Positions 13,242-15,550 of a stretch of DNA of 58,636 nt are shown here, piece after piece; the first letter of the stretch is position 1; the number at the start of each line of letters is the position of its first letter. Location: contig WLOQ01000008.1 in assembly GCA_009699245.1 (NCBI GenBank), positions 55,136 to 113,771 of the forward strand, written 5' to 3'. The stretch is from Actinomycetota bacterium (GTDB taxonomy: Bacteria; Actinomycetota; Thermoleophilia; Solirubrobacterales; Solirubrobacteraceae). The notes below the pieces were generated by a model. It was given only the letters and a program-made list of their open reading frames with translations, was not told the DNA's origin and did no database searches. Both the position numbers and the translations under genes were made by a program.

Positions 13242-13247
13242 AGCCTA
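13242..13247 (-). promoter_or_regulatory. putative -10 (TAGGCT) for the crotonase gene
   Basis: TAGGCT on the minus strand ends 7 bases before the ATG at 13234 and overlaps the end of the histidine kinase gene. It implies a leaderless transcript inside the run. Confidence 0.4.
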
Positions 13248-14354
13248 CGTCAGCGCGCTCGGCGGGACGGCGGCCTCGACGAGGGTCCCGCCCTCGGTGC
13301 GGTGCTCGACGCGCAGCGCGCCGCCGAGGGCCTCGACCCGCTCGCGCATGCCGACAAGCCCGAGCGCACCAGCGCGCCGGGGCTCGTCGTCCGCGGGCAT
13401 GCCCTTCCCGTCGTCCGCGACGCGGAGCGTCAGCGAGCCGTCTGCACCGCCCTCGAGCACGATGGACGCCTGCGAGGCGCCGGCGTGCTTGGCGACGTTC
13501 TGGAGCGCCTCCTGGGCGACGCGGTAGAGGCAATCCACCACCGGCTGCGGCAGGTGCGCCGCAGCAATCTGCGCGGACTCGAAGGTGCACACGACGTCGT
13601 GATCCCGGCTGAAGGCGGCCGCGAGTTCGCTCAGTGCGGTGGCGAGGTCGTGGCCTTCGAGCCCGAGCGGGCGCAGATCGTCGATCAGGCGACGCATCGA
13701 CGTGCCTGCGTCGATCACGAGCTGCTGCGCGTCGCGCAGCCAGCCCACGGCCTCGTCGTCGTCGGCGCCGACGGCATTCTCCGCCAGCCCGATCTTCATG
13801 TTGAGGATCGAGAGCGTCTGCTGGACCTCGTCGTGGAGGTCGCGCGCGATGCGGCTGCGCTCCTCGACGCGCCCGCGGTCACGTTCAGCGCCGCGGAGCG
13901 CCTGCTCGATGCGGTCGCGCAGCTCCTCGCTGCGCTTGCGCTCGGTGATGTCGCGTGAGACACCGAGGATCTCGATGAGCTCACCCTCGTCGGTGAGCTG
14001 CGGAATCACCTGAAGCTCGCACCAGATCGTCGAGCCGTCGCTGCAGAAGTACTCCAGCTCACCTCGGAACTCCGGCAGCGGCTCGCCGGCCGCGAGGGCC
14101 GCGTAGAGGTCCTGGAAGTACTGCACGGTGACGGCCATCGACGGCGGCGGGTGGATCTCCTCGAGCGGCTGGCGCATCGCCTCCTCGGGCGTGATCCCGC
14201 GCAGGCGCTCGACCGCCGGACTCACATACGTGATGCTGCCGTCGACCGCCATCGTCCAGATGACATCGTTGGCGTGCTCGGCGAGCGCGCGATGGCGGCG
14301 GTCGATAGCGCGCAGGTCGGCCGCGATGTCGTGGTCGTCGTCAGGCACCGGCAT
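13245..14354 (-). CDS. PAS-domain sensor histidine kinase, HisKA_3 (NarL-partner) type
   Basis: This 369-residue kinase has no membrane segment, so it senses in the cytosol. A PAS domain spans about residues 20-140 (HANDVIWTMAVDGSITYVS, ending GVSRDITERKRSE with its PAC motif). A short coiled linker leads to the HisKA_3 dimerisation box ERSRIARDLHDEVQQTLS with phosphoacceptor His174. The HATPase domain contains YRVAQEALQNVAKHA (N box), VADDGKGM and LGLVGMRERVEALGG. Such kinases normally phosphorylate LuxR-type regulators. The only regulator nearby is OmpR-type (14837-15550), two genes upstream in the same run, with the CsrA-like gene between. The PAS ligand is not evident. Confidence 0.92.
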   Translation of the reverse strand: MPVPDDDHDIAADLRAIDRRHRALAEHANDVIWTMAVDGSITYVSPAVERLRGITPEEAMRQPLEEIHPPPSMAVTVQYFQDLYAALAAGEPLPEFRGELEYFCSDGSTIWCELQVIPQLTDEGELIEILGVSRDITERKRSEELRDRIEQALRGAERDRGRVEERSRIARDLHDEVQQTLSILNMKIGLAENAVGADDDEAVGWLRDAQQLVIDAGTSMRRLIDDLRPLGLEGHDLATALSELAAAFSRDHDVVCTFESAQIAAAHLPQPVVDCLYRVAQEALQNVAKHAGASQASIVLEGGADGSLTLRVADDGKGMPADDEPRRAGALGLVGMRERVEALGGALRVEHRTEGGTLVEAAVPPSALT

Positions 14355-14385
14355 CCCTGCGTGATGCTCGCAGATGCTCGGCGCG

Positions 14386-14778
14386 TCAAGCGCGCGTGAT
14401 CGGCACGTCGCGCGGCGCGTTGATCACGACGCGCAGTGCACGACCGCTGCGCGGCGACATCGCCGTGATGCCCATGTGCGGCGCGATCGCGATGCGCTCC
14501 TGCGGACGCAGCAGCATGAGCCAGTCCGCCCCGTCCCGCTGGAGCAGCGGCTGGCCTTCCAGAACGACAGGCGGCTCCACCGCGCCCTGGAGGACGAAAA
14601 CCGACACAGACCCGGTGCGTCCCTGCGCGACGAGGCGCATCTCCTCGCCGATCGTGACGCTCGCGCCGACCCGGACGGTGAGCGCGAGACCGCCGCGCGC
14701 GATCGGGTCGGTCGACGGAGCGCTCGCAGTGCCGAGCGGCAGAACAGAGGTCGTCGCCATCGCACGAGTGTCACGCAC
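14386..14778 (-). CDS. tandem CsrA-like domain protein (candidate RNA-binding regulator)
   Basis: This is a 130-residue protein. Residues 86-130 (WLMLLRPQERIAIAPHMGIT, then a strand and ALRVVINAPRDVPITRA) align by eye with the whole CsrA fold. That includes the INAPRDV segment and an Arg at the place of E. coli CsrA Arg44 (Arg129), which binds RNA. Residues 31-75 (LALTVRVGASVTIGEEMRLV and following) look like a second, degenerate copy lacking that Arg. CsrA works as a homodimer with two RNA sites, so this could be a one-chain dimer with one live site. The GTG at 14778 has GAAGGGG 4 bases upstream; an in-frame ATG lies at 14760. It sits between a response regulator and a histidine kinase gene. 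The alignment was made by eye and needs a profile search. Confidence 0.6.
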   Translation of the reverse strand: MRDTRAMATTSVLPLGTASAPSTDPIARGGLALTVRVGASVTIGEEMRLVAQGRTGSVSVFVLQGAVEPPVVLEGQPLLQRDGADWLMLLRPQERIAIAPHMGITAMSPRSGRALRVVINAPRDVPITRA

Positions 14779-14836: not shown

Positions 14837-15550
14837 TCAGACGAGGCGGTAACCGAACCCGCGCACGCTCTCGATCAGCGCACCGGCCGCGCCGAGCTTG
14901 CGACGCAGGCGCAGCACCGCGTACTTCACGCGATCAGGACCGATCCCCGCAGGGTCGTCCCACGCTAGGGCGAGCAGCTCCGCCCGTGAGAGCGCTCGGC
15001 CACGCTCGCGCACGAGTGCCAGCAGCAGTCGCCACTCGACGGGCGTGAGCTCCAGCGGTTCGCCGCGCAGCCGCGCGATCCGCGCGCGGACGTCGAGCTC
15101 CAGCTCGGCGGATTCAACGCGCAGCAGGGACGTCGCCGGCGGCGCCGTGCGCGGACGGCGGGCGAGCGCCCTGATGCGGGCGAGGAGCTCGCGTGTGCCG
15201 AACGGCTTGGCGAGATAGTCGTCGGCGCCGGCCTCCAGACCGCGCACCTTGTCGTGCTCAAGGCTCTGCGCGTTGAGCATGAGCACCGGCACGTCGCTCT
15301 GCTCGCGGATGCGGGCGAGCACCTGCCAGCCATCCAGCACCGGCAGGCCGAGATCGAGGACGACGACGTCCGGCTCCGTGGTGGCGAACACGTCGAGTCC
15401 CGCGGCGCCGTCGGCGGCGAACACGGCGCGCATGCCTGCGCGGCTCAGCGTCAGACCGAGCGTCTCACGCAGAACGGTGTTGTCCTCGACGAGCAGGACG
15501 GTCGCCTGCCCGCCGCGAGCGGCGGCCGCGCTAGGCCTGGTGCTCGGCAC
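14837..15550 (-). CDS. OmpR-family response regulator
   Basis: This 237-residue regulator has a receiver domain at about residues 17-125: acidic pair Glu22/Asp23 in LLVEDN, phosphoacceptor Asp66 in [14 protein letters not shown] and Lys115 in DYLAKPFG. A winged-helix DNA-binding domain follows ([18 protein letters not shown], ending [10 protein letters not shown]). The conserved Thr/Ser switch after the fourth strand (usually LTA) reads LNA, so Asn93 replaces it, and the phosphorylation response may differ. The GTG start at 15550 overlaps the msrA stop by about 20 bases. No OmpR-class kinase is adjacent; the kinase two genes on is HisKA_3 class. Confidence 0.9.

Follow-up and report, generated by a model that had tools for sequence, protein, structure and literature searches.

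A 130-residue CsrA-like protein that may be a single-chain CsrA with one composite RNA site

The CsrA/RsmA/RsmE proteins (Pfam family PF02599) are homodimers of chains of about 65 residues with two identical RNA sites. Each site is formed by strands beta1 and beta5 from opposing chains, and Leu4 and Arg44, found in beta1 and beta5, respectively, are critical for RNA binding (PMC7652899). Full repression of glgC requires both sites, and the bridging of two sites is regarded as central to how CsrA acts (PMC7652899). A rearranged form is RsmN/RsmF of Pseudomonas aeruginosa (4kji), a 71-residue homodimer, again with two sites, in which a helix separates beta2 from beta3; the strand make-up of the CsrA and RsmN sheets is known (PMC3791407). 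Furthermore, the C-terminal domain of YqeH contains two repeats which, within one chain, form a sandwich similar to that of the CsrA dimer (Andreeva and Murzin, PMC2954204). No account of a CsrA in tandem or single-chain form was found in the openly accessible literature, in which subscription journals are thinly covered; this is therefore only a weak sign of novelty.

The protein of 130 residues considered here shares with CsrA/RsmA/RsmE the strand order, the APR-x-V-x-x-x-R signature and the Leu4 and Arg44 positions, but it appears to consist of two diverged units in one chain with one kept site, whereas CsrA is a dimer of identical chains. Like RsmN it seems to be a rearranged CsrA, although it is longer (130 as opposed to 71 residues) and its predicted model lacks a helix at either beta2-beta3 junction. 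The repeat domain of YqeH differs in being part of a GTPase and in having compact repeats, the topology of which has been changed via segment swapping; no GTPase or other domain is detected by Pfam in the 130 residues.

The CsrA-like gene and its two halves

The gene is found at 14386..14778 (-) of the window, i.e. the whole stretch of 58,636 nucleotides that was analysed. Its frame, already recognized in the initial annotation, is open, with a GTG start at 14778 immediately preceded on its 5' side by AAGGGG and an alternative ATG at 14760, and its GC content by codon position resembles that of both neighbour genes. Upstream, a response regulator gene (receiver and Trans_reg_C domains, 14837..15502 (-), start uncertain) ends 58 nt before it; downstream, 31 nt past its end, a PAS/HisKA_3/HATPase histidine kinase is encoded (13245..14354 (-)), so that the CsrA-like gene lies between the two, with all three genes on the minus strand in an operon-like layout. 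HisKA_3 (NarX-type) kinases usually have LuxR-type regulators as partners; the kinase found here adjoins a regulator of the OmpR type. A relative of this kinase at E 1e-30 or better was found in none of 36 related genomes.

The only family match of the protein is Pfam CsrA, with 26.8 bits over residues 90-129, which correspond to model positions 6-44. The match includes the INAPRDVPITR stretch and places R129 on CsrA R44, both as originally described, and almost no residues follow the latter. The score lies just under the Pfam gathering score of 27 bits, and the NCBIfam CsrA score (19.2 bits) lies far under a cut-off of 73 bits; the protein is therefore named CsrA-like rather than a CsrA equivalog.

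When the two halves were scored separately with a profile built from 45 CsrA sequences of relatives, and 5000 shuffles served as the null, the C-half (residues 86-130, 14389..14523 (-)) obtained 23.4 bits, a score reached by none of the shuffles, and the N-half (residues 30-80, 14539..14691 (-)) obtained 6.7 bits, which 10 of the 5000 shuffles reached. A second CsrA copy in the N-half is thus marginal and, on sequence alone, only suggestive. Similarity was not significant in a profile comparison of the N-half with the C-half, and the best E value of a phmmer search with the single protein against the PDB was 0.37.

The initial annotation had aligned residues 86-130 with the full CsrA strand order and had read residues 31-75 as a second copy. 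The strand order of the C-half holds, but its beta1 (residues 85-90, 14509..14526 (-)) is decayed and matches CsrA poorly, with Met88 at the counterpart of Leu4. In the N-half, LTVRVGASVTIGEE does align with CsrA 4-17, and beta1-beta2 is weakly recognisable, L33 of the first strand (LALTVR, residues 31-36, 14671..14688 (-)) corresponding to CsrA Leu4, but the later strands have diverged. The Arg44 of beta5 is present in the C-half as R129 (residues 127-129, 14392..14400 (-)) and a basic residue is missing from that place in the N-half strand (residues 71-74, 14557..14568 (-)). The Glu originally assigned there is Val or Glu depending on the alignment; however, Arg and Lys are absent from residues 55-80 altogether, and the loss of Arg44 from the N-half is therefore independent of the register.

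A probable composite RNA site and its recurrence in bacteria and phages

Since each CsrA site spans two chains, a head-to-tail fusion of two units gives one composite site from N-half beta1 and C-half beta5, and another, at the joint, from C-half beta1 and N-half beta5. The one intact site that had been proposed was thought to be contained in residues 86-130. Conservation is indeed split between the two sites, but the location has to be corrected: the kept site would span both halves (L33 and R129), and it would not be fully intact, CsrA R6 being replaced by V35 and the chain ending almost directly after R129.

Other proteins bear on this point. Besides a normal CsrA (C16), the source genome (1.95 Mb, 99.4% complete) encodes a second protein of the one-chain type, paralogue L003 (L003:1453-1872 (-)), and another species of the genus carries orthologue L002 (L002:1474-1860 (+)). 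The paralogue is about 30% identical to the 130-residue protein, its frame is open and its synteny is conserved across two species. The L003 and L002 genes are each divergent to a gene of the FAD amine-oxidase type, beyond which, in L067, DUF1365-like and then cyclopropane-fatty-acid-synthase-like frames follow (names assigned by eye). All three proteins match Pfam CsrA at E 4e-4 or better, and a search of the PDB with a profile built from them alone retrieves RsmE/CsrA (E 3.9e-5). Full-length versions occur in 2 of 17 genomes of the genus; further full-length members were found neither in 232 genomes of the order, nor in about 400 genomes of the class, nor in the 396 genomes of the phylum that were scanned.

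A clear tandem is the only csrA found in the related genome G017 (L064:5294-5662 (+)), with two Pfam CsrA stretches and 101 bits. It occupies the normal csrA locus, where the flanking genes match those of the csrA of the source genome, and three congeners have single CsrAs; the two halves differ in sequence and, therefore, do not result from a simple assembly duplication. In genome G045 (L065:4677-5078 (+)), a CsrA is followed in the same frame by an apparent C-terminal zinc ribbon (CRRCG..CRECF).

A scan of CsrA-like phage genes revealed a 92-residue protein with two CsrA stretches in Pseudomonas phage vsMR (L165:454-729 (+), unannotated) and proteins of 157-160 residues with a similar layout in the Vibrio phages V-YDF132, vB_VpS_PG28 and VH2_2019 (L166:360-836, L183:356-829 and L184:356-838, all (+)), one of which had been labelled CsrA by its original annotators; the N-halves of the Vibrio phage proteins are placed by alignment only, as the CsrA profile does not detect them. 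Like the 130-residue protein, the phage proteins have Leu2/Leu4 at the N-end and AP..R at the C-end of one chain, and a decayed joint site, but their linker is shorter and those from Vibrio phages have an additional C-terminal part. The Vibrio phage gene is flanked by pyruvate phosphate dikinase and protein-tyrosine phosphatase genes, and a more distant copy in vB_VhaS-a (L186:239-736) has lost Arg44. Direct matches to phage proteins were absent from tblastn searches with the 130-residue protein and its paralogue, IMG/VR yielded no relatives when scanned with the tandem alignment and the vsMR protein, and none were found in the plasmids searched.

Strand scores reveal the same split in all four bacterial tandem proteins, with N-half beta1 closer to CsrA than C-half beta1, and C-half beta4/5 far closer than N-half beta4/5. 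In the 130-residue protein the values are 9.3 versus -1.0 for beta1 (N versus C) and 41.4 versus -5.6 for beta4/5 (C versus N), and in the G017 tandem 31.1 versus -2.3 and 60.5 versus -3.2, respectively. The composite of N-half beta1-2 and C-half beta3-5 of the 130-residue protein scores 32.9 bits (0/3000 shuffles). In the same test its C-half on its own reaches 23.9 bits and its N-half 6.8, and the opposite composite falls to -0.4. For the vsMR protein the kept composite also ranks first (50.5 bits), ahead of the C-half (29.9) and the N-half (20.0), with the opposite composite at 0.4. The test is weak for L002 (47/3000 shuffles, with no gain over its own C-half) and fails for paralogue L003 (2475/3000), the N-half of which is undetectable. 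Support from composite scores is thus strong for the 130-residue protein, G017 and vsMR only.

Across nine one-chain proteins, of which four are from Vibrio phages and three belong to a single bacterial lineage, so that they do not count as independent, the N-end Leu2 and Leu4 and the C-end Ala36-Pro37 are invariant, and the C-half Arg44 is kept in all but one. Because these proteins were recruited mostly via C-half similarity, the conservation of the C-half is partly built in; the N-end Leu2/Leu4 was hardly selected for. Overall, the comparisons support the view that the RNA site at the joint has probably been lost and that the opposite one is kept in a reduced form, and the change from a paired to a single-chain CsrA seems to have happened more than once.

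Whether the kept site still serves RNA has to be weighed against a one-chain CsrA fold that does not bind RNA at all and acts via protein contacts, e.g. with the adjacent kinase or regulator. The loss of R6 in all three bacterial homologues and of R7 in L002 and L003, a Vibrio phage relative without even R44 and the position of the gene between those of a two-component system would all fit such a function. It is, however, rather unlikely in view of the critical RNA contacts Leu4 and Arg44, which are fixed or nearly so across all nine, in contrast to the decay of the opposite site.

The predicted fold

The fold was predicted with AlphaFold2 on a 23-row alignment, which gave a model of moderate confidence (model 2; pLDDT 73.9, pTM 0.63), one of the five models being far ahead of the others. 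Its strands are arranged as 5+1+5, namely residues 31-36, 40-43, 47-51, 59-63 and 71-74, an extra strand at 78-82, and residues 85-90, 95-99, 102-107, 114-120 and 127-129; the C-half of the model may have been steered by normal CsrA rows in the alignment. Among viral models, a 114-residue phage protein named 'Carbon storage regulator' matches best (105 columns, E 1.1e-4, TM 0.53/0.59), and nine unnamed phage proteins of 85-160 residues follow it at probability 1.00. A confident match was absent when both models were compared with the PDB by Foldseek. RsmN (4kji) could be aligned to model residues 30 to 130 with 35% identity but a Z score of only 3.4; judging from the ranges, the alignment would fit a combination of N-half beta1-2 and C-half beta3-5, following the strand scheme given in PMC3791407. 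YqeH (3ec1, 3h2y) appears in the Foldseek lists at E 0.7-3, values which prove nothing alone. An earlier model (model 1; 3 rows, pLDDT 65) gave no meaningful match, and the virus capsids and FHA domains that lead the VIA-align results for both models (best Z 5-6) are within the noise range.

These results also bear on the possibility that CsrA is confined to the C-half and that the N-half is an unrelated beta domain, with the C-halves of two chains paired as a normal homodimer with two RNA sites. The lack of a significant profile score for the N-half on its own, and of a confident CsrA-like match for the model in the PDB, would agree with this arrangement. It is nevertheless improbable, as the C-half beta1 required for a normal dimer is decayed and the N-half beta1 is CsrA-like, the composite score and the clear tandems in G017 and phage vsMR speak against it, and the model matches a phage CsrA across 105 columns. 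A non-functional csrA copy in decay or a chance similarity, to which the low scores and the presence of full-length versions in so few genomes of the genus might point, is scarcely credible given the open frame with neighbour-like GC by codon position and AAGGGG before the GTG, the still open paralogue with synteny conserved in two species, and a C-half score that no shuffle reached.

The tandem reading of the initial annotation is therefore retained on the strength of the homologues, the predicted fold and the G017 tandem, even if the N-half is weak when taken alone. In the form that we favour, and regard as fairly probable, the protein is a diverged single-chain CsrA of two head-to-tail units, in which the joint site is lost and the opposite one reduced but kept.

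A possible role beside normal CsrA

In a single-chain CsrA of this kind, the two fused units would together form, as a single chain, the sandwich normally built by the swapped homodimer. Because the fusion connects the first unit's beta5 with the second unit's beta1, the RNA site made of those strands would be lost, and the opposite site, built from the first unit's beta1 and the second unit's beta5, would be kept in its reduced state. The protein would then most likely hold only one GGA-type RNA element at once, without bridging two, and it could act on messages with one site, by repressing or shielding them, or as a competitor of normal CsrA. By this route it may act as a special-purpose post-transcriptional regulator beside normal CsrA, possibly co-expressed with its own two-component system.

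A GGA-type site (CARGGATG) is found near the kinase start, at 14352-14359, outside a hairpin loop; with four such sites in the window versus 2.2 expected, this candidate is not above chance and self-regulation is therefore not claimed. FliW, known from other bacteria as a protein antagonist of CsrA, was not found (PF02623) in the 99.4% complete source genome.

More tentatively, and with somewhat less confidence than an even chance would carry, one-chain, one-site CsrAs may form a recurring class with more than one origin in bacteria and phages, in which fusion destroys the joint site and turns a bridging regulator into a monovalent one that could compete with normal CsrA or serve as its selective partner. 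A natural one-site CsrA would pose directly the question of what a monovalent CsrA can regulate and, at the same time, would show a route from an obligate interlocked dimer to one chain, a type of link that has been discussed for YqeH (Andreeva and Murzin, PMC2954204).
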